Shown here: positions 1 through 49,330 of the stretch, in pieces
Numbering within the stretch: position 1 is the first letter of the stretch
Layout: the number at the start of each line of letters is the position of its first letter
Assembly: GCA_015039465.1 (NCBI GenBank)
Contig: MU130299.1
Coordinates: forward strand, 206,476 to 270,475
Direction: 5' to 3'
Length of the DNA: 64,000 bases
DNA from: Phlegmacium glaucopus
Taxonomy: Eukaryota; Basidiomycota; Agaricomycetes; Agaricales; Cortinariaceae
The notes under the pieces: generated by a model
Told to the model about the DNA's origin: nothing
The model's input: only the letters and a program-made list of their open reading frames with translations
Database searches by the model: none
Program-made: the position numbers and the translations under genes

Positions 1-1195
1 AGTGCAAGAAAATCACTGCCTCAGAAACGAATGATGTTCAGAGTTGAAAATAGTTTTTCCAACTCTGCACTCAAGTAAGCAAATAAGAAAATTATGATGA
101 AGATTATTAGTGGATCAATGTTAAGTTGACAAGATCCATATTATTAATTGTGTTTGAAAATAGTTTTTCCAACTCTGAATGTTAAGTTGACAAGATCGAC
201 GCTTAATAAGGTTGTCCAATACCCGGGGTTCCTGTTTTACAGATTGGATAGAAATTTGGGATGAAGGCTGAGCTGTTTAGATCGGTATGGTTTCGAGGCA
301 CTGCTGCCTTCGTTAACCCGACTAATGCTTGGCTCTTATGTCTTTCGGTACCCGAGCTTCCCTGAAACCTCTGTGCACCTCCCATGGCGATATCGCGGAT
401 TTGGCAAACGCTATCAGCCACCTCAACGCCAGGATCGCCTAGCTTGCTGTAGACGCTGCCTTCTTGTCTAACTTTGTTTTCTTTAGTCTTAGTGCCTTAA
501 GCTTTTTGCGCTCATGAATCGAGTCGTATAGTAAGAAAGGTGGTGGAGAGGTGCAGAGCCACGTTTTTATTTCTCGAACTGGAGTCGGCTCCTGTACACC
601 TTCTAACAGTTTCGGCTGCGCTGCTGCTTCTCATGGGACATGTAGGAACTACGTCTCCTGGTTAACAGCTCGTACTTCGATTTACTTTTGCTTCTAAGCT
701 TCTGAGTGGAGTATCTCAACTTCGTCGTAAAAGTTAATTACGAAGTCGCTGCTCTATTAGAGGATTTTTACCCCAGTAGTGATAGGCTTTGAGCTAAGTT
801 GTAATAACACTACAGCAGGAATGGACTTAGGATGGCTGGTTGAGAAGTTTGATAGTGCCGTCGACTTGCTCGATCGTTGGAGAGTCCTCCAGTTAGTGTT
901 GCCTACTTTTGGCTACTAAACTATAGGAAGTAGTAGCTCCTTCGCGTCGTAGCGCAGTATTTACTGCTTGCTCCTTTCTTACGACTTAGGCGCAATCGAC
1001 AGGTGTACTTCTTTTCACCTTCTTTAGCTGTACCGTTCGTGTTTTTTAAACTTTTTGTGAGGGTACGACTAGTTTTGCTGCGTACGCCTTTAACACCTTT
1101 TGGTCCTGTACCTCGAGGCCTAACAACCAGCTTTCCTCCACCGTTCCTTCCCGTTCCGGGCTCTGTTTTCTTCAAGTTTTTCCAGCTTTGTTATG
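1..1195. other. Mirror-reversed sequence block 1 (complement-only coding)
   Basis: In normal six-frame reading this stretch has no recognisable content. When the printed strand is complemented base by base without reversing, it reads left to right as the rest of a copia LTR (1-215), a GGTTATGGGCCCC primer-binding-like site (216-228) and an open gag frame from an ATG at 238-240. The right edge lies near 1185-1215, where ordinary minus-strand LTR sequence takes over. The left edge is at or beyond base 1. Reversing the string in place would make it continuous with the minus-strand LTR that starts at 1313. I infer an assembly string error, not a biological inversion. Confidence 0.9.
238..1195. 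CDS. Copia gag (UBN2/Retrotran_gag_2 type), readable only in complement-not-reversed orientation
   Basis: The complement of 238-1269 read left to right is open from ATG to a TGA at 1267-1269. The last roughly 25 codons (after about 1195) are probably LTR sequence beyond the block edge. The N-terminus has the copia gag layout: a short leader, then IPKLRDDGSNWADYEPRI, then KAMGSKGLWRHVEGT, and later TSAEDMWKIV and SETRFNIIVMSSLP. The C-terminal third is basic and holds a CCHC zinc knuckle, CGNCGKPGHGAPDC (Cx2Cx4Hx4C), then WSKGGGKEGQGP. Gag packages element RNA in virus-like particles. The absence of stops suggests a young element. On either real strand there is no gag-like frame here; the short ORFs at 203-421 and 921-1175 are artefacts of the mirror reading. 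Confidence 0.88.
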
Positions 1196-1641: not shown

Positions 1642-2012
1642 TTAAAGATGGCCTGGGCAAAATCTAATAACCATGTTGAATGCGGAAAGGTACTTGGACC
1701 ACCGGGCTTGACACCGGGATAAGATTTTGGTGGTCACAACATACTCTAGATTCTTATGGTCAGTAACCACATTAATTGGGAAACTAGCACCTTCAAGGTA
1801 GTGATGCCAAGCTTTGAAAGCTTCAAAAATGGCAAGGAGTTCCTTATTGTGAATGTCGTAATTCAGTTCCGCACTGGAAAAGGTACAGGAACAATACGCA
1901 ATGGGATGGATTTCTCCATCGGAATCATGGATGGAAAGGATAGCTGCTAAAGCATAATCGGAAGCATCAGTTTCCACAATGATAGGACAGTTAGGCTTCT
2001 AATGTGTCAACA
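1642..2012 (-). pseudogene. Gypsy RNase H domain
   Basis: The frame shows VETDASDYALAAIL, with the first catalytic Asp, then SSAELNYDIHNKELLAI (catalytic Glu), VVTDHKNLEYV (second Asp) and RWSKYLSAFN. This is a nearly complete Ty3/gypsy RNase H. Just upstream, VLTH is followed by TAG where the family has Trp (VLTHWKP). The reverse-transcriptase frame lies on the other side of the solo LTR at 2018-2589. Removing that LTR and one copy of its target duplication brings the two frames into register. Confidence 0.85.
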
Positions 2013-2017
2013 CCAGA

Positions 2018-2589
2018 TGTTACATTCTGTTATATGTTACTCCAGTCCAGCTCCATCGGAGTTGGTTCCGGTAGTCCATACTCCATTCCAGTACTCTCCC
2101 TTGTTTCCGGTTCTACTCCTCCCATGTCCAACTCTGAGACCTCTCTGTATCATTCCGGCTTTTCCAACGATACTCCAAACCCATTACCACACCTTTGCCA
2201 TAACAACTATTTCTTTGTCATCACTTTCCCATTATCAGTCAGCACCCCTACTATGGATTATTCACCCAAGAATGCAGGACTTTCTGGGAGCAGAGCGCAG
2301 CACTTTATATTTATCTTTTATATTTTGGTTGCTATTCCTTTTATTATTAAGTACTCGAAACTTGTATGTTTTCCTCAGTTCGAATATCATCTTAGTTTCC
2401 TCCTCTTGTCCTCTAAGTCACTGAGGTCTTCCATCTTTCTGTTCTCTTCCGGTTCCAAAATCAGGACATTGTAGGAGCTGGGCGGCACAGCACATACGCT
2501 GAGGCCAAAGTCCCTTTCTGTTACTTGTCCGGTTCCATTCCATCCAGTCTGGAGTTACTCCAATGTTTTCCCTTTGTCTAAACTTAACA
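2018..2589 (+). mobile_element. Solo LTR of the gypsy family, antisense inside the same family's pol
   Basis: It is 572 bp, starts TGTTACATTCTG and ends CTAAACTTAACA, so it has TGTTA/TAACA ends. It is flanked by perfect 5-bp direct repeats CCAGA (2013-2017 and 2590-2594). It matches the element's own 5' LTR (5716-6299) in inverted orientation with scattered substitutions and indels. A solo LTR arises by recombination between the two LTRs of a full element. Confidence 0.95.
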
Positions 2590-4250
2590 CCAGAGCCGAA
2601 ATAAAAGCCTCCTTGAGAGTCTTAAAAGCAAGGCAGCAACTGTCATCAAAAACCCACAGAATATTTTTCCGGGTAAGTTGAGTCAACGGAACAACAATAT
2701 CAGAATAGTTGTGAATGAAACACCTGTAAAAATTAGCAAAACCAAGGAAGGACTGGACATCTTTGACTTTCCGAGGTTCCAGCCAGTCTTGAATGACTTG
2801 GACTTTTGCTGGATCCATTGAAAGGCCATCAGGACCAATCATGTGACCCAGGTACTTGACGGAATCGGAGTGGAAAACACATTTCTTACCATTAGCAAAG
2901 AGATTATTATCTCAAAGCCGTCGGAGGACTTTGGAGACATGTTTGATGTGATCTTTTTCATTGATGGAGAAAATGAGGATGTCATCCAAATAGATGATTA
3001 CAAACACATCTAAAAGGTCAGCAAAAATAGTGTTAAGGAACCTTTGGAAACCGCCAGGGGCATTGGTAAGTCTGAACGGCATGGTGAGCCATTTGAAGGA
3101 GCCATAGCGGGTATGGAAAGCAGTCTTCCACTCATCTCCGGCAGCAACCCGGACGAGATGGTAGGCATGCTTTCAGTCAATCTTAGTAAAAATTCCAGAT
3201 TTGCAGGGAGCATCAAGTAAATCGGAAACAAGAGCTTGTCTTTCTGAGTGATGGCATTGAGTTTTTGGAAGTCAACACAAAGCCATAATGACCTGTCCTT
3301 CTTCTTGATAAACAGGATGGGTGCTCCAAAAGGAGACTTTGAAGGCTGAATGAAACCCATGTTTAGGTGCTCATCAATGAATTCTTGGAGTGTACCCAAC
3401 TTGGATTTGGAAAGTGGATATATTGGACCCAAAGGGGGTTTTGCGGACTCATCAATTTTGATTTTTAAGTTATACTCTCGATGAGCCACTAGAGTGTTAG
3501 CTTTACCCTTGGAAAAGACGTCCAAAAATTTGTGATATATTTCTGGAACACCTTCCAAGTCGGAATTGGAAGATGTGGCGGAGGCTGCAGCGGAACGGCT
3601 AGCAGCCTCAACCGGATTATGAATGGAAATGGAAAAGCATTGGGCTCCTTTGGAACAAATGGAACTCATGAAAGCTGCAGCAGACACTAAGGAAATTTTA
3701 GGAGCGGTCAATGGTTTTGGAACAAAGGGAATATTAGAAAGAGGTTCCGGAATAATATCGGAAGGCAATTCAACCTTCAATTTTGTGGAAACCGTATCAG
3801 ACATGGTAATGTCAGATACCGGAATGGGTGCCTTGGCAGAAACGGAAATGGGAACTGGAAGGATAACTATATGGTCTCGGAAAGTTACACTGCTATTGAC
3901 CCAGTCAATCAACAGATTATGTTGGGTGAGCCAGTCAAGCCCGAGTACAGCAGGAAAATCAGAATCCAGCTTGGTTAATAAAAACCGGATTTTGTGGATG
4001 GAACCACAAGAGAACTGAATGGAAACAACAGTAGCATGGGTAATCATGCCTGGAGAAGAGCCATCAATAAGACAGAGTGTCATTGGAGAAATAGGAAAAA
4101 TCGGAAAATCACTGGACTTCACATAATGCTTGTCCATGAAACAGTGAGTGGAACCACTGTCAATGAAAGCAGAAAAATTGACATTCGGAAATTGAAGACA
4201 AAGAAGAGAAACAAAAACTGCTCAGGTATCTGGAGAGATTATTGCATTTA
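2590..4250 (-). pseudogene. Gypsy protease and reverse transcriptase
   Basis: Read from 4250 downward. The aspartic protease motif FIDSGSTHCFMD is at about 4180-4130, followed by VLGLDWLTQHNLLIDW, a spacer, then the RT start PPLGPIYPLSKSKLGTLQEF. KSPFGAPILFIKKKD and LCVDFQKLNAIT are RT block 2. A frameshift follows QKDK near 3235. Further on, [10 protein letters not shown] (the YLDD active site, about 2980-3000) and FLGFANFYR are clear. A TGA replaces CGA in VLRRL(R)DNNLFANG near 2912. The RT is therefore disrupted in at least two places, on top of the solo LTR at its 3' end. Confidence 0.9.
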
Positions 4251-4316
4251 GGACTGCAACAAGTTCAGCACAGGGGCTCTCGCAATTCACCATCTGTGCT
4301 GAGTCCAGTGAATTGC

Positions 4317-4760
4317 TTAGTCTTTTTTCTTCTCCAAACCGGAGTCCTTTGGCTTAGCCAGAATGGACTTGGAAGCGGAATCAGAAACGGTAGAGGCTCG
4401 GCCTTTAGCGGAGCCTGCCTTGGCAAGGTTACAGTCAGGAACACGATGACCGGGCTTGCCACAAAAAAGACAGAGCTTATTATCCATCCGGTGTTGCCTT
4501 TCTTGCTGGGTAAGTCTACCGCGCAAGTCCAGCTTGCCATCTAGATTAGGTTTTGGAGGAGTGGAAGAAGTCTTACCAGAGTCTGCAGGCTTAGCGGACT
4601 TTTGATCCAAAGGCTGAGACTGTTTTCCAGAACTGGAAGAAGGGTTGGAAGAGGGCACAGAGGAGGATGAAGAAGGAGTAGGACCCTTTGGAGGGTTTTG
4701 GCATTGCTGCGGTGATGTAACTGCACAGAGGTTGTTGAGAAAAGGTGTATTTTCAAGATT
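4317..4760 (-). pseudogene. Gypsy gag, C-terminal nucleocapsid
   Basis: A Ser/Pro/Lys-rich stretch leads to RLTQQERQHRMDNKLCLFC and a CCHC knuckle CLFCGKPGHRVPDC (Cx2Cx4Hx4C). This is the RNA-binding end of a Ty3/gypsy gag. The frame extends upstream (ENTPFLNNLCAVTSPQQ) to about 4760, where recognisable gag stops at an AT-rich segment. The N-terminal gag resumes at 5071. Confidence 0.85.
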
Positions 4761-5070
4761 ATAAAAATCTCTACTTTATACAATCTTAATAATGCAAGTT
4801 GGGTTTTCTAGAAAGTATAACCTTTCCAAGACTTTGAATTTCACTTCAACTAGTACACACAATAACAACAATAATTTGGATCAATTCAAGGATGATCAAA
4901 CTTTTAAGTGGTTTTGCAATTTATGGCTTGCACCAACAATCAGTCAAAGAATTCCTAAGACTTTACTGATTGATTTAAACTTGTGTACACAAAAGTCCAA
5001 GACTTTGTTACAACTTCAACACAATTGCATACACAAGAAGACTCAAACTTCTGCTATGACTTTAACACTT
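4761..5070. other. AT-rich non-coding segment replacing the middle of gypsy gag
   Basis: About 310 bp with no gag similarity on either strand. It contains recurring imperfect motifs (CCAAGACTTTG, CTAAGACTTTA, ACACACAA). It replaces the part of gag between AVRCSWG and the nucleocapsid linker. I found no clear terminal repeats or target duplication, so insertion versus replacement is unresolved. Confidence 0.5.
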
Positions 5071-5631
5071 GCCCCAAGAGCAGCGGACTGCCAAAGAGTT
5101 GAACCGGACTAAGTATTCAGAGATACATTGGCTATCCTTCATTTGGAGAGTCATGAGTTTGTGTTCTACGTCAGCAGATTTGTCGAAAGGACCGAAGTTG
5201 GACTGAAGTTTGCTGACAAATAGATCCCAATCTTCAAACCAAGATGGAGGATCGTCAGTAAGTCCGGAAATTCCAGGTTCAAACCATTCCTGAGCAATGT
5301 CCCGGAGATAGGACAGAGCAAATGTTACTCGCTTGGAGTCGTCTTGGAATGTGTCAGAAGAGCTCCTGAAATAGAGCCTACCCTGGAAAAGAAAAGCTTT
5401 CAGTTTCTTAGGGTCCTTACCTGTGAAGGGTTCAGGCTCTCTAAGTCCGCCAGCCAAATCGGACTTGGCTGAAGATTTCCCAAGGGAATTCAAAGCAGAA
5501 ACAAGTTCATTGATATGAATAGATGGAGACTCAACTTTGTCTGTAGTACTCCGAGGTTCATCAATATGACTAGCCTCTTCAACTACATTGGGCATGGGAG
5601 TCTGCCTGGTGGGGGTGTGTTCATGGGACAT
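5071..5631 (-). pseudogene. Gypsy gag, N-terminal capsid-like part
   Basis: It starts at ATG 5631-5629 (MSHEHTPTRQT). After a polar leader it contains LREPEPFTGKDPKKLKAFLF, then ALSYLRDIAQEWFEP, then LQSNFGPFD and YLVRFNSLAVRC. This is the retrotransposon gag (Retrotrans_gag) fold, which assembles the particle. The frame is lost after SWG where the AT-rich segment begins. The start is supported by its position about 85 bp inside the 5' LTR end. Confidence 0.85.
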
Positions 5632-5715
5632 ATTTTCTTGTATCAGTAATGGAGTTTTGGATTTTATTTTGAACAAGTTAGCATAGAAGGAGTGGATGAG
5701 AAGTTTCAAATATAC

Positions 5716-6299
5716 TGTTAAGTTTAGACAAAGGGATAACGTCAGAGTAACTCTGGAACAGACAGAACAGAACTGGAACAAGTAATGGAAAGGACTTTGG
5801 CCTCAGCATATGTGCTGTGCCGCCCAGCTCCTATAGTGTCCTGATTTCAGAACCGGAAGAGAACGGAATAAGACAGAAGACCTCAGTGACTTAGAGGACA
5901 AACAAGAGGAGGGAACTAAGTTGATATTCAAAACTAAGGAAAACATACAAGCTTCAAGTACTTAAATAATAAAAGGAATAGCAACCGAAATATAAAGGAT
6001 AAATATAAAGTGCTGTGTTCTGCTCCTGGAAGGTCCTGCATTCTTGGGTGAATAATCCATAGCGGGTGTGCTGACTGATAGTGGGAAAGTGATGACAAAG
6101 AAATAGTGGTTGTGGCAAAGATGTGGTATTGGGTTTGGAGTAACATCGGAAGAGCCAGCTGGAATGATAGGGAGAAGTCTCAGAGTTGGATGTAGGAGGA
6201 GTAGATCTGGAAACAAGGAAAAGTACTGGAACAGAGTACGGACTACCAGAGACAACTCCAACGGAGCTGGACTGGAGTAATGTATAACAGAATGTAACA
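5716..6299 (-). mobile_element. Gypsy 5' LTR
   Basis: 584 bp. On the minus strand it starts TGTTACATTCTG and ends CTAAACTTAACA, like the solo LTR at 2018-2589. A TATA-like TATTATTTAAG and the transcript leader are expected inside it. The next bases on the minus strand (GTATATTTGAAACTTC) do not match an obvious tRNA 3' end. Confidence 0.9.
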
Positions 6300-18644: not shown

Positions 18645-19488
18645 NNNNNNNNNNNNNNNNNNNNNNNNNNNNNNNNNNNNNNNNNNNNNNNNNNNNNNNN
18701 NNNNNNNNNNNNNNNNNNNNNNNNNNNNNNNNNNNNNNNNNNNNNNNNNNNNNNNNNNNNNNNNNNNNNNNNNNNNNNNNNNNNNNNNNNNNNNNNNNNN
18801 NNNNNNNNNNNNNNNNNNNNNNNNNNNNNNNNNNNNNNNNNNNNNNNNNNNNNNNNNNNNNNNNNNNNNNNNNNNNNNNNNNNNNNNNNNNNNNNNNNNN
18901 NNNNNNNNNNNNNNNNNNNNNNNNNNNNNNNNNNNNNNNNNNNNNNNNNNNNNNNNNNNNNNNNNNNNNNNNNNNNNNNNNNNNNNNNNNNNNNNNNNNN
19001 NNNNNNNNNNNNNNNNNNNNNNNNNNNNNNNNNNNNNNNNNNNNNNNNNNNNNNNNNNNNNNNNNNNNNNNNNNNNNNNNNNNNNNNNNNNNNNNNNNNN
19101 NNNNNNNNNNNNNNNNNNNNNNNNNNNNNNNNNNNNNNNNNNNNNNNNNNNNNNNNNNNNNNNNNNNNNNNNNNNNNNNNNNNNNNNNNNNNNNNNNNNN
19201 NNNNNNNNNNNNNNNNNNNNNNNNNNNNNNNNNNNNNNNNNNNNNNNNNNNNNNNNNNNNNNNNNNNNNNNNNNNNNNNNNNNNNNNNNNNNNNNNNNNN
19301 NNNNNNNNNNNNNNNNNNNNNNNNNNNNNNNNNNNNNNNNNNNNNNNNNNNNNNNNNNNNNNNNNNNNNNNNNNNNNNNNNNNNNNNNNNNNNNNNNNNN
19401 NNNNNNNNNNNNNNNNNNNNNNNNNNNNNNNNNNNNNNNNNNNNNNNNNNNNNNNNNNNNNNNNNNNNNNNNNNNNNNNNNNNNNNNN
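18645..19488. other. Assembly gap (844 N)
   Basis: Unknown bases. The CxC6-like exon enters it from the left, so the remainder of that gene and perhaps the transposase core belong here. The true size may differ. Confidence 1.
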
Positions 19489-26680: not shown

Positions 26681-27669
26681 GACCCTGTGTGTATGTACAT
26701 CTTTTTCAATGATTGACACTTCACAAGACGGCTGAAAGCAGTACACCAGATAAACATAGAAAGACTGTATTATTGATCTTTGAAACTCGACCTGTGGTTG
26801 ACGAAGGCTTACCAATATTGCAATGTCTCTGATTTCTGACGGATCAAGAAAGTTTATCAATTCCCTTTGTCTGGATTGGCTGGCGATTTACGAACTTAGA
26901 ACGGATTCTTCTCGGGAGGACGCGATCTCGATCTGGTATAGTCAAGTTCCGCATTCTAGACCAGCACCACAAATTGATCATATGGCTACTCGTCAGTGAC
27001 AATGGCAGTTGGGCCCATCTTACAAAATTCTCCGCTAGCTAGTAGTAGCTAGCTTGGCTACTGCTTTTGTGTTTCTCACAAGATCTTACACAGGATTTTG
27101 TACACATCGGTCTGTACTGCTTTGGATCTTCCGTTAATTGATGCTGACCGGGACCAGTCGACCTCTCAAAAATGACAGTCACGCCTTCGAGCTACCAATC
27201 GGAAAATCCACACCGCGTTACGCATCGGCGAAGGACCTTTCAAGGCCTCGAAAAGGATGGTTTCAGACCTGTGCCCTGATTGGGCTCCAATCGTCTACTC
27301 CAGAGGGTCGAACATGCTTTGTATTCCGTCCACGACTCCAAAGGCAAGATTGACTATGACCCAGCCCCTATCTACGCAATTATTGCGATTGACGATACTG
27401 TATTGATTGCGACATCACAAGGTCCCATGTTGCCTGTCAATTTATACATAATCAGAGCATTTCGAGTTTTTCTGATTCGGTCTATTAATAGTTCTTGAAC
27501 AGCCCCAAAGCAGTCGAGGTGCCAATGTCCAGCCACTAATTGTTCAATTCAGTTTCCCCTGATCTCTGATAAGCCGATGAGGGGTTGAAGCAAATCCTAT
27601 AAAAGCCACTCCCTACCCCCACGCTTTTCCATCAGGCTAATCGCAAGCACCTACTAGCTTTTTGACAAT
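26681..27669. other. Intergenic stretch
   Basis: No convincing gene. Overlapping short frames at 27138-27353 and 27280-27498 have no family pattern. 27590-27669 looks like the promoter/5' leader of the next gene (CTATAAAAG at 27597, then a C/T-rich leader). Confidence 0.5.
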
Positions 27670-28618
27670 ATGTCTAATTACAACACTGGCAACGACTCGT
27701 ACGGCTCTTCCAACCGGGACGATTCTTATGGGTCTGGAAATAATCGGGCTTCCGGCAACGACTCGTACGGCTCTTCAAACGACAACTCCTATGGGTCGTC
27801 TAACAAGAATACCGATTCGTACGGCTCTGCAAACAACGACTCCTACGGGTCATCTAATAAGAACAACGACTCTTATGGCTCTTCCAACAACGACTCCTAC
27901 GGGTCGTCTAACAAGAACAACGACTCCTATGGGTCGTCTAACAAGAACACCGACTCCTATGGGTCGTCTAACAAGAACAGCGACTCCTACGGCTCTTCCA
28001 ACAACGACTCCTACGGGTCGGCTAACAAGAACAACGACTCCTATGGGTCGTCTAACAAGAACACCGACTCCTACGGCTCTTCCAACAACGACTCCTACGG
28101 GTCATCTAATAAGAACCAGGACTCGTACGGCTCTTCCAACAACGACTCCTACGGGTCGTCTAACAAGAACAGCGACTCTTACGGCTCTTCCAACAACGAC
28201 TCGTATGGATCGTCTAACAAGAACAACGATTCCTATGGGTCATCTAACAAGAACACCGACTCCTATGGGTCGTCTAACAAAAACAATGATTCGTACGGGT
28301 CTTCCAACAATGACTCCTACGGGTCGTCTAATACTAAATCGGATGACTCCAACAACGACAATTCCGGGTCAGCGGGTGGCGGAGGTGATTTTATTGGCAG
28401 CACTATCAAGTCCGCAGCGAGCAAGGCCGGTTTCGAAATTGTGAGTCGTCGCTACTGGTACATTGTATTATTATTTTTTACTAACTTGCTGGTCTGTTTG
28501 CAGGACGATGACACTGCTCAGAAGATTGGAGGAGGCTTGAAGGAATCCTTGGGCAAGTTCTGTAAGTATTCAGCATTTATTGTATCTTCACAAACTCATA
28601 TGCCGTTCATAGTCTGAA
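27670..28618 (+). CDS. Low-complexity NDSYGSSNKN-repeat protein
   Basis: Exon 1 27670-28440, intron 28441-28503 (GTGAGT..CAG), exon 2 from 28504, a second intron from 28560 (GTAAGT..TAG) and a stop at 28616-28618. The first 220 residues are about 25 repeats of (N)NDSYGSSNK(N), built only from Asn, Asp, Ser, Tyr, Gly and Lys. Then GSAGGGGDFIGSTIKSAASK and, after splicing, DDDTAQKIGGGLKESLGKF. The short amphipathic C-terminal domain recalls small stress-related fungal proteins with SYGSS repeats. The repeat region is intrinsically disordered and prion-like in composition. A CTATAAAAG box lies about 70 bp upstream of the ATG. No catalytic function is expected. Confidence 0.85.
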
Positions 28619-29104: not shown

Positions 29105-29743
29105 TCATGTTACAAGGGTTTGTTTTGTCTTGCTCAGCTGAGATATAGTCGCATCAGAGAAGCCCAAATGAGCTTTAACCAGTTCAGGTGGTGTTAGCGC
29201 AAGCCATTGGGTTAAAGAAATATCTTGAAAGAGATCTAATATGATAATAAGACTTTAAAATTTTGCAGTTCAAAACAGAATAAAAACCACATACTCGTTT
29301 TTAATATCTCAATAAACCTCAAAGTCGTGTTTCCGGTATTTTCTATGTAGTGGCCTGGAAAAAAAATGAGAAATTTAAACGTAAATTGACCATTTGAGAT
29401 TTGCGAACCGAATGAAGGCGGTGTATACGCAATGTCACCAGGCTAACGTATTAGAATCCGTTTCAGAAATCTTTAACCATATAGAATAGAAAATAAATAA
29501 AAATTACATAGAAGTCGTATGTTGCTGCATTACTCTGTGACGCAAAGAGTGTGATTCTTGCCTCACCAGATCTGAATGACAAGGATGCTGCATCAGTCAT
29601 TTTTGGCAAGTAGATGGTAACAAAAGGTTTTTTTTCACATAAAAAATGTCCACTCGGGCTGCGTAGGGTGCCACTGAAAAAGTTCAATGTCAGGGGGCGG
29701 AAAAGACGTGGGCGAACGCATTGTGAATAACGAACATGCAATT
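29105..29743 (-). CDS. Oxalate decarboxylase (bicupin), C-terminal cupin
   Basis: Minus strand, stop at 29105-29107. It begins in the gap edge with AATTGCAT (E-L-H) and a GTTCGT donor at 29735, and continues after TTTTCAG with WHPTQPEWTFFI. Then SGEARITLFASQSNAATYDF, PGDIAYTPPSF, GHYIENTGNTTLRFIEI, LFQDISLTQWLALTPPELVK and AHLGFSDATISQLSKTKQ. Each junction has a GT..AG intron of about 55-70 nt. HWH..PEW and GHYIEN carry the second cupin's Mn ligands. The enzyme converts oxalate to formate and CO2, usually secreted or wall-bound in wood- and litter-decaying fungi. The first cupin is in the mirror-reversed block at 30999-31555, so the gene spans the gap. Confidence 0.9.
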
Positions 29744-30507
29744 NNNNNNNNNNNNNNNNNNNNNNNNNNNNNNNNNNNNNNNNNNNNNNNNNNNNNNNNN
29801 NNNNNNNNNNNNNNNNNNNNNNNNNNNNNNNNNNNNNNNNNNNNNNNNNNNNNNNNNNNNNNNNNNNNNNNNNNNNNNNNNNNNNNNNNNNNNNNNNNNN
29901 NNNNNNNNNNNNNNNNNNNNNNNNNNNNNNNNNNNNNNNNNNNNNNNNNNNNNNNNNNNNNNNNNNNNNNNNNNNNNNNNNNNNNNNNNNNNNNNNNNNN
30001 NNNNNNNNNNNNNNNNNNNNNNNNNNNNNNNNNNNNNNNNNNNNNNNNNNNNNNNNNNNNNNNNNNNNNNNNNNNNNNNNNNNNNNNNNNNNNNNNNNNN
30101 NNNNNNNNNNNNNNNNNNNNNNNNNNNNNNNNNNNNNNNNNNNNNNNNNNNNNNNNNNNNNNNNNNNNNNNNNNNNNNNNNNNNNNNNNNNNNNNNNNNN
30201 NNNNNNNNNNNNNNNNNNNNNNNNNNNNNNNNNNNNNNNNNNNNNNNNNNNNNNNNNNNNNNNNNNNNNNNNNNNNNNNNNNNNNNNNNNNNNNNNNNNN
30301 NNNNNNNNNNNNNNNNNNNNNNNNNNNNNNNNNNNNNNNNNNNNNNNNNNNNNNNNNNNNNNNNNNNNNNNNNNNNNNNNNNNNNNNNNNNNNNNNNNNN
30401 NNNNNNNNNNNNNNNNNNNNNNNNNNNNNNNNNNNNNNNNNNNNNNNNNNNNNNNNNNNNNNNNNNNNNNNNNNNNNNNNNNNNNNNNNNNNNNNNNNNN
30501 NNNNNNN
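29744..30507. other. Assembly gap (764 N)
   Basis: It falls inside the oxalate decarboxylase gene once the neighbouring block is read correctly. The missing part is the end of cupin 1, the linker and the start of cupin 2, which is consistent with a gap of several hundred bases. Confidence 1.
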
Positions 30508-30880
30508 CAGTATGAGTGCCGTAAACTATCTACCACAGTACCCCGCGGTCCGTATTAGTAAGAAGAATGGTCAAGATGCCTAGAAGTTTCTCTTCTCTCT
30601 TTCGTATGGATACTCACTACGTCATTGGCGTTTCTAAGCATGACGGTAGGCAACACCACGACGAAACCAGATGTTCACACCAGGAGACGCGTTTCACATC
30701 CGGAGACAGTACCGTAGCGCCCAAGTCACATGCGGAACAATAGACGCAGAACTTCCTAATCGACCATACACGACGTGTACCCGTCTCCATAACCTAGCGT
30801 ACCTAAGGTTTCCTGGAGTGCCTTACGGACCTATGCTACTGTACTCCTTATCTAGCCAAGCTTAGTCTTCTGCGGGGCAT
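30508..30880. CDS. LanC-like protein, C-terminal part, mirror-reversed
   Basis: In complement-only reading the block starts with an intron end and TGGTGTCATGGGG, coding WCHGAPGIIILL, then DAVTAKIRTAIRCGAALVYK, LCHGIAGSVYALLSAS and GLAGMCCTWAEVLDRMD, ending near GYDDM. WCHG and LCHG hold the Cys and His that bind zinc in the LanC alpha-toroid fold. Two one-base indels are evident (for example AAAGTGTAGGC where RKGVGLCHG needs one more G). About 50 residues normally found between LLSAS and EGLAGMCC are missing. This looks like low-quality gap-fill sequence or a decaying gene. Confidence 0.85.
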
Positions 30881-30998
30881 AGTAGAGGCTCCTAGAGTGA
30901 ATCCGCTCATTCGCCCGATTGGGAAAGACACCAGGAAAACATCAAATTTTGGTGTCGAAACGATGCCGCAAATACGGAGGGTAGCGAGAAACATGAAG

Positions 30999-31555
30999 TA
31001 CTCCGTGGTCCGCAATCACTAAAACCGTATGGACGAAGATGTAAGTTGTAGCAAGCGACGTGGACGGTGACTAAGTCTAGGATTATTACTTGAGACCTGA
31101 GGATTGAGACCAGGCAAGGGGTCGGGCGTTGCCCCAGTTGAGCCACGAGGATAAGACCCAGGTGTTTTGTATGGTGATCTTGAGGTCTTACGGCTAGATG
31201 AACGTGGAGGGTGGTGACTGGTACCGCTTCATTTCTTGAAGTTCACCGGGAAAAGAAACTCGGTATTGTTTGAGCCGCTACCCCCGACCCGGTCCGTTGT
31301 CTTACCATGTGATGAACGTAATAAAGGAAAGAAGTTACTTTAAATAGAAGACGCCGGGTAGATATCAACTACAAGACGGGGTTCGTTGCCTATAACGACC
31401 ATTCAGAGTACTTATAGCAAATTGGTAGTTACCAACTGCCAGTCTTGGGTTCCACAATTGTACGCAGAGTTTCGTCCACGTTATGCCATTCGGAAAAAAG
31501 AAACGTTCCAAGCTACTTTGCGAGTAATAAATTAGTGCAAAAGTCCCTTTACGTA
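30999..31555. CDS. Oxalate decarboxylase, signal peptide and first cupin, mirror-reversed
   Basis: Complement-only reading, left to right: ATG at 30999-31001 opens a signal peptide (MRHQALVILAYLLL..SFAAP). Then LWTPNSGPFPSPQRGQLGAP, LELQNADLLAPPTTDHGEVK, WPFSLSHNKLGDGGWARQQN, an intron at 31306-31366, VDVLPQATDIAG, an intron at 31400-31452, VNMRLKAGAIR, an intron at 31487-31545, and EMH at the first cupin's HWH motif. All junctions are canonical and the frame is uninterrupted. It is the N-terminal half of the gene whose C-terminal half is at 29105-29743. Confidence 0.92.
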
Positions 31556-31586
31556 ACATTTAGTCGGTTCAATAGTCAGACCTTAC

Positions 31587-32660
31587 TGAACGAGATGACT
31601 TCCGCTAGAACCACCACTTTGAACCCTATTAGTTGCACATTTTGTCGGCCAGTTACCTGATTCATCTTGGCAGTCAACAAGCCATAGGATCGTATGTATG
31701 ATATCCCGTATGTGTGTCTGATAAAGGGGAAATGGGCAATTCAAGATAATCTGTAGAACGCCCGCTGCCAACAAAACGAAATGAAAACGAATGACCTAAC
31801 AATAAAAAAAAATTACCAACCTACTCCGTGAGCGCCGCCCAGGTAACGTTTACCATGCCATCTCCACATCAACGGTGGTACGGAGCGAGTATCGCGAGAC
31901 TTGAGGTCGGCGGAAAGCAACGAGATATTATTGATTCAATGAGACAAGATAGATCGGTGTCGGAAGTAAATTTTTCTAGCGGACCCTGCACCAAAGCAGA
32001 ATGCGCGTCACCACGGAGAGCCGTTCGAAGGTAAAGAAGAGCATAGAGTAATCTTGCGCGCCCGTACAAAATCTCACATCCATCGTCCTGGTTCTGAATA
32101 TCTTCGTTGCCAGCAGGAGAAACTGCTACTTTTATAGCATAGTCTAAATAATCTTTAGCTGCTTGGAAATCATCGATGATGACTTGTTCAGAGGTGGCGT
32201 GGTTTCGCGCTAGAACCAAGGTGGCGATTCCGAGCTGAGTCTCGATGAACGATAAGCGTGTGGGCCTCGAGTGTATGTGAGCAGAGTTGATAGGATTTTG
32301 GCGTAGCACCCTAACTAAATCCTTATCTGCTGTAGAGAACAAGGTTTTACGCTCTAAGATCTCTTCTGATAGTCGAACGTTTTTCTCCGCAATATGATAC
32401 CCCATAAAAGCAATCCCTTGGGTAGGAAATATTCATTTCAATGAAGTTTCGATATCCGATGTCACGTTTGATTCACCTGCAATCATAAATGCTATCAAAG
32501 CTGCTGATTTTTGTGATCTCTTTGCAATGACGTTGCACAACTGCTAGGTCTCGAAGAAGTGTTGATGATATGGATTTGGTCGTAGATGCCCAGTCTTTCT
32601 CCAAAGCAAAAAGTTCAGTGCTGTGGGCAATGGGATAAAACGAGAATTGATATCAGCCAT
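31587..32660 (-). CDS. LanC-like protein, N-terminal part
   Basis: ATG at 32660 (MADINSRFIPLPTALN). Following exons give QKSAALIAFMIAG, then GIAFMGYHIAEKNVRLSEEI, GCEILYGRARLLYALLYLRT, RWHGKRYLGGAHGVAGVLQI and LVDCQDESGNWPTK, ending at a GTAAGG donor at 31586. GRARLLYALLY and GAHGVAG are the repeated helix-loop features of the LanC/LANCL fold. The rest is in the mirror-reversed block (30508-30880). LanC-like eukaryotic proteins bind zinc and glutathione-type thiols; their fungal role is poorly defined. One frame change between ALNF and the QLCNVIAKRS exon is not resolved and may be an unrecognised intron or an indel. Confidence 0.85.
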
Positions 32661-32667
32661 GCTGACA

Positions 32668-33070
32668 TGCTATCGAGTTGGTCATCGGGTTGACTGGAGG
32701 ATATACGTAGTCCGACACACTCCCCAAATGGGGAAGTTATGAGATGCGACACACCGTGCTTCGGCTGCCTCACGGCAGCCGGAGTTCTAACCACCTAACC
32801 TCCCCAAGACCGCGCTACCGCGCGAAAAGGACATATACCTGTCCCTAACTCTACCGCTAACCTGAAGAAAAACCACTAACACAAACCCCTAACGCTAACC
32901 AGGACCTAGCCAATTACTAGCCCAACCCAAACCCCATCGGCACCTAACCGGCAGACTCGCCGGAGTGTCAAAAACAAGCATCCAATTTGATGGGAGATCA
33001 GCAACACATGTCACTTTGTGACGGTGTCGATGTTCGTATAATACCGTGCTATCGAGTTGGTCATCGGGTT
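32668..33070. repeat. Insertion-like segment between 24-bp direct repeats
   Basis: The same 24 bp (starting TGCTATCGAGTTGGTC) occurs at 32668-32691 and 33047-33070. Between them lie short hairpins (GGCTGCC..GGCAGCC, CGCGCTACCGCGCG) and a C-rich tract with repeated CTAAC. No coding potential. It sits in the divergent promoter region between the LanC-like and EXPERA genes. Confidence 0.6.
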
Positions 33071-48549: not shown

Positions 48550-49330
48550 ACGGAGCTAAATGCCGCCCCCTGCATCCTTGGACTTCCCACTCCTGGCAAA
48601 TCATTCTTATAACTATGTAATTTCAAGTATCCACGCTTAGGTCTAGCCTGAGCCACGTAGCTTGTATATTTACTATCCTCATTTATTTCATCAGCAAACA
48701 CGTACTGTAGTTACTATGGACATTATTTCGCGCTGTGTTCTACATACAAGTCGTTCCCTATTCAATAGACCGAAACTCAAATTACCAATTACGCGTGTAC
48801 TGGCGGGGCGTGAGTGTCCTTTCCAATTGAATTTAACACTAGCCTGTTTTCTCTCTCTCTGAGTGCCAACTCCCCCAAACCCCCTTCTTCCTCGTCGATG
48901 ATTGATCCTTCTTGTTGTACAACCATGCCTTAGTATATATGTTCTGACAGTTTCTGATGATCAGGCCGCCAGCGTGCATACGGGGATACTTAGTTATCGA
49001 TTTTCACGCACTGCCGTTATTTGAGTAATAGAATGGTTATTGTTAATTTTAGGGAACTGACATGTGGGCGGGGAAAAATAATTAGTTGTTATAGATACAA
49101 ATAGTAGGGAAATTTATAAGGTAAAGAGGGTTAGTAAGTCATTCATCGTTACTAGACCTGTTCGAGAGCCTTGCGTATTAAGAAGTAGGACGTTTGTGTT
49201 AGGTTGCTACGCAGCATGAGTATATATTTAGAGAAACCGCCGAGTTTGGTCACGGAGGTACGGTCCTATTGAATGAAGATAGGATTTTCGGGGTAATCCC
49301 TGGGGCAGGCCTTTACTCTATCTCTGTTTT
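48550..49330. other. Intergenic stretch
   Basis: 3' region of the preceding gene and AT-rich sequence; nothing supported. Confidence 0.5.

Follow-up and report, generated by a model that had tools for sequence, protein, structure and literature searches.

Can a kilobase of sequence beside an assembly gap be real DNA if its proteins appear only when the complement is read from left to right? The question is raised by positions 30508–31557 (the main block, 1,050 bp) of the window, by which we mean the whole 64,000-nucleotide stretch of Phlegmacium glaucopus DNA analysed here (C105:206476–270475, in a genome of 60.5 Mb and 259 contigs). The block adjoins a run of 764 N (29744–30507), and when all twelve translations of 30508–31556 were inspected, recognisable protein was found on the complement read left to right. 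Searched as printed in its own genome, the block matches nothing except itself; to that extent the claim of the first-pass annotation that any homology search would miss it holds. Reversing the block and searching proteins, as that annotation had proposed, gives complement-only translations that match LanC-like and oxalate decarboxylase proteins.

For a comparison at the DNA level we used a second locus of the same genome (L003, C16:12000–21900), chosen since the right flank of the block matches C16 at 95% identity. In a four-way control restricted to the plus strand, the complement of 30508–31557 aligns to L003 3347–4586 with 1094 and 364 bits, versus 22.9 bits for the printed block, 22.9 for its reverse complement and 21.1 for the plain reversal; the last, being the other strand of the complement, is not expected to match on the plus strand. 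The string-reversed block is 87.8% identical to L003 over 863 columns and 93.5% over 245 columns. The flanks (31558–33024 and 29189–29743) align to L003 as printed, and the string-reversed block fits between them. At the inner junction (31557|31558) no base is gained or lost relative to L003, with one G/A mismatch: reversal of 30508–31557 joins the flank CTAAAT to GTCATACTC, the L003 equivalent being ATCATACTC. The complement of 31557, a G, extends the match to L003 at the outer end of the block, so the extent of 30508–31556 given earlier was correct in position but one base short. By DNA alignment and protein reading together, 30508–31557 is confirmed, far beyond chance, as real fungal DNA written in reversed order and uncomplemented, as had been proposed.

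The first of the two genes is LanC-like. Its upstream part (31558–32660, minus strand) is printed normally, matches C16 at 95% and aligns to L003; a further part (30529–30750) reads on the complement only, left to right, and includes WCHGAPG and LCHGIAGSVYALL. The complement of the block matches Pfam LANC_like (PF05147) with an E value of 1.5e-8 (2.8e-8 in a second run) and, in a PDB search, residues 286–346 of LanC-like protein 1 (LANCL1; E 1.3e-7). The flank piece matches residues 188–214 of LanC-like 2 weakly (E 0.2). The breakpoint cuts an intron, whose 5' part lies at 31558–31586 on the minus strand and whose 3' part is the complement of 30508–30530. From the donor at 31586 to the acceptor ending at the complement of 30530 it measures 52 nt, is of the GT-AG type and runs uninterrupted in L003; after reversal the donor thus meets the acceptor in the block, as predicted. 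The LANC_like match places the gene among known LanC-like proteins, from which the window gene differs in that one part is printed normally and another is found on the complement only, and in carrying indels relative to L003. Its reading frame is not intact, 137 bases and small stretches being missing compared with L003.

The second gene encodes a putative bicupin oxalate decarboxylase (OxdC). Its N-terminal part (30999–31557) reads on the complement only, opens with a signal-peptide-like start and matches OxdC residues 6–67 (E 4.4e-14, PDB search). In a large protein set the block piece matches 64 of 67 candidates, three of which bear fungal names (Laccaria bicolor, 76% identity; Hermanssonia centrifuga, 60%; Rhizoctonia solani, 61%). 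The C-terminal part (29105–29743, minus strand) is printed normally, and its portion 29189–29743 is the left flank aligned to L003; here residues 342–378 of OxdC are matched with an E value of 5.2e-8 and residues 315–337 weakly (E 0.08). On the complement we read four probable exon pieces separated by three GT-AG introns, by eye and without a gene predictor, which agrees with the exon structure proposed before. The outer end of the block lies inside the stretch encoding the HWH of the first cupin, which accordingly faces the gap after reversal, again as foreseen. Much of the bicupin core would then lie in the N gap at 29744–30507, and the enzyme is a predicted one. The N- and C-terminal parts are collinear with known OxdC; the window gene differs in being divided between normal and complement-only sequence, with indels compared with L003. 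The ATG on the window complement at 30999 is CTG in L003.

Both genes are collinear with their flanks once the block is reversed, as judged from the order of LanC-like and OxdC residues and from the alignment to L003. Of seven pieces compared with Pfam, six had no match: the four from the flanks, which returned nothing at E ≤ 0.1, the second LanC frame and the N-terminal piece of OxdC; the flank halves are therefore assigned by protein matches and by their alignment to L003.

Compared with L003, the block has 63 mismatches, ten internal gaps amounting to 196 missing bases, the largest of them 137 bases at 30750|30751, and five extra bases. The right flank lacks 53 bases and has 34 extra, and the left flank lacks 32 and has 10 extra. 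Indels are hence strongly one-sided in the block (196/5), those in the right flank being closer to balance (53/34); the one-sidedness may reflect a poor fill consensus. The imperfect window copy is either a decayed copy or the product of such a consensus. Opposite the 764 N of the window, L003 has 834 bp. Because of the 137 bases and the further small indels, reversing the block would not restore intact genes in the window copy. The description of the block as hiding two real genes thus fits the locus, but not the window copy as it stands, which keeps frame-breaking indels relative to L003.

The main block is not alone. In C105:1–270475, which comprises the window and all of the contig to its left, there are five N gaps, and a reversed block is found at five of their ten edges, affecting four of the five gaps. 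We scored 1 kb next to each gap with a fourth-order Markov model trained away from gaps. Five edges scored −37.8, −3.2, −16.5, −8.2 and −19.0, versus +21.0, +23.0, +33.5, +29.9 and +9.8 for the other five (background of 225 windows: mean 14.1, 1st percentile −2.4). The gap at window positions 18645–19488, with +33.5 and +29.9 in the adjacent 1 kb, looks normal on both edges and served as an internal comparison. A blastn search (E ≤ 1e-10) of the string-reversed stretch against itself and some other loci yielded 25 alignments, which merge into 12 places, and at each place the best mirror alignment pairs a gap-edge block with a partner elsewhere; all five blocks have such a DNA mirror match.

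Both edges are reversed at the gap C105:203910–206475, which lies just outside the window. Its right edge forms a second reversed block at window positions 1–1190 (inner end approximate) and encodes, on the complement only, a copia-type gag (Retrotran_gag_2, E 5.4e-12). Its left edge we read as a probable copia reverse transcriptase with RNase H, for which Pfam gives RVT_2 below the cut-off only (E 3e-4). At the gap C105:144336–149429 a complement-only piece covers RVT_1 positions 3–99 (E 5.2e-8) and a normal-strand piece positions 97–204 (E 5.2e-7). The left edge of the gap C105:117231–119648 appears to encode a Ty3-like pol only when reversed; since the 294-aa reversed piece had no match in Pfam, the Ty3 label is a motif reading. 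The five blocks are about 0.7–1.8 kb long, with inner ends partly approximate, and total 5.9 kb, so that about 2% of the 270 kb makes no sense as printed. All affected places found within C105:1–270475 adjoin open gaps, although unique non-coding sequence of a closed gap could escape such a search. The fault is not universal, as five of the ten gap edges look normal; an extension that was written correctly would be indistinguishable from original contig.

Several other low-scoring places appear to be normally written. One of them, 27501–28500, was rejected as a reversed block: it carries an open frame of 315 aa, normally oriented, with NNDSYGSSN-type tandem repeats. This frame (27670–28617) consists mostly of NNDSYGSSNK-type tandem repeats with periods of 30, 54 and 84. 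The gene lies 1–2 kb to the left of the last gap and has a Markov score of −17.1. In its own genome, 26500–29188 matched only itself, so there is no second copy for comparison. The weak outliers at C105:59601, C105:7801 and window position 48601 were rejected as well: judged by open frames, the longest of which lies on a normal strand in each, they bear no sign of reversal.

Reversed gap-edge strings recur across the assembly and are not local to the main block, a new result that adds to the first-pass annotation. As a query we used a common 574-base LTR (L017:4672–5245). A 3-kb query containing it gave at least 80 genome matches (40 of 1,935 candidates scored), and the LTR alone, string-reversed, gave at least 44 (40 of 59 candidates scored), which merge at 5 kb into at least 38 places on 32 contigs. 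As these counts come from one repeat family and a part of the candidates, they set a minimum for how many places are affected. We read six of the 38 places, picked at different ranks. Each of the six has its reversed LTR close to an N gap, at a distance of 1, 1, 3, 37, 81 or 463 bp, three to the left of the gap and three to the right. Of random 574-bp placements in C105:1–270475, 1.8% lie no more than 500 bp from a gap. One of the places (L036) has two more pieces: reversed LTR at 1,863 bp from the gap and, on the opposite side at 735 bp, a piece that is written normally; a complement-only frame of L036 had no match in Pfam.

The main block is a real and unusual data fault, not a biological feature. 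It has reversed orientation, continues into its flank at the base level and adjoins a gap, and blocks like it recur on both sides of gaps. Very probably it is an assembly artefact, in which a gap-extension step performed only half of the reverse-complement operation when it wrote partial fills; the earlier suggestion of an assembly or gap-fill bug gains strength from the recurrence at other gaps. That the blocks adjoin open gaps, vary in length and occur on both sides points to a step in which contig edges are extended into gaps while the Ns that remain are kept. At the main block, a scaffold gap of about 1.8 kb would have been partly filled by extension from its right edge, and the added 1,050 bases would have been complemented but left unreversed (equivalently, reversed but uncomplemented) and set beside the flank, Ns being kept for the rest of the gap. 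The same step would have acted at many open gaps of the assembly, and a complement of a read written where its reverse complement was due would yield such a product on either side. We infer that a gap-extension program skipped half of its reverse-complement call; a long-read gap filler is our first guess for the program responsible. What can be raised against an artefact is that the Markov score is not specific by itself, the normally printed tandem-repeat gene at 27670–28617 scoring as if reversed.

The alternative that survives best, improbable as we consider it, is that strings were reversed after assembly, during scaffolding, file conversion or deposition or in a working copy of the sequence. 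It draws on the fact that only the finished sequence is visible and not the step that altered it, the letters of the window and of G000 being identical; a general conversion fault, however, would not single out stretches bordering open gaps, to the left as well as to the right, whose outer end meets the run of N. Far less credible is a single slip confined to the gap of the main block. That one of the two gaps of the window has normal edges would fit a local event, but four other edges in C105:1–270475 are affected, and at least 38 places carry a reversed LTR, all six of those read adjoining gaps. Equally implausible is a true rearrangement, an ordinary inversion or a misoriented contig, to which the position of the block between two flanks that are normal in L003 might point. 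We rejected it, because an inversion yields the reverse complement, which reached at best 22.9 bits against L003 where the complement reached 1094. Recombination joins strands of like polarity and cannot reverse strand order without complementing. A chance protein-like reading of random sequence deserves practically no credence, for although composition scores can mislead, as they do for the tandem-repeat gene, the 863 and 245 columns at 87.8% and 93.5% identity to L003 and the independent LanC and OxdC matches speak against it.

The gap-extension fault that we favour resembles known assembly faults in part. As in misassembly by inversion, a gap-adjoining stretch is wrongly ordered with respect to its flank; a misoriented contig, however, is a reverse complement that a two-strand search catches, whereas the block is found on neither strand. 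Tools of the PBJelly or GapCloser kind fill gaps partially, by extension into N runs, and there too added sequence stands beside a remaining N run; here the added string is in reversed order. Among the literature matches listed, no description of an assembly fault by reversal without complementing was found: the available portions of PMC6191289, PMC6551238 and PMC8848313 describe no such fault, and among the matches listed an exact phrase occurs only in PMC8920891, a reporter-assay paper.

The fault puts real genes and mobile elements out of reach of ordinary searches, and near the gaps of this assembly gene models, counts of retrotransposons and claims of orphan genes are unreliable; the true sequence can be recovered from letters already in the assembly. 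A reversed search of gap-edge strings is an easy screen that would reveal the fault in any assembly. That the same fault of a gap-extension program has marked other public eukaryotic assemblies is a tentative suggestion, which we hold to be possible rather than probable; if it has, a hidden class of true sequence, reversed and uncomplemented, would lie beside N gaps, unseen by BLAST-type searches and gene callers and recoverable by searching gap-edge strings reversed.

L003 holds a second LanC-like and oxalate decarboxylase pair at 1831–5997. In the stretches compared, the similarity between the window and C16 spans only about 4 kb, and for this reason we call the C16 locus a second copy and not an allele; the pair in L003 is perhaps a transposed duplicate. 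In the window, degenerate CTAACC-like repeats reminiscent of telomeric repeats lie at 32820–32960, upstream of the LanC-like gene.
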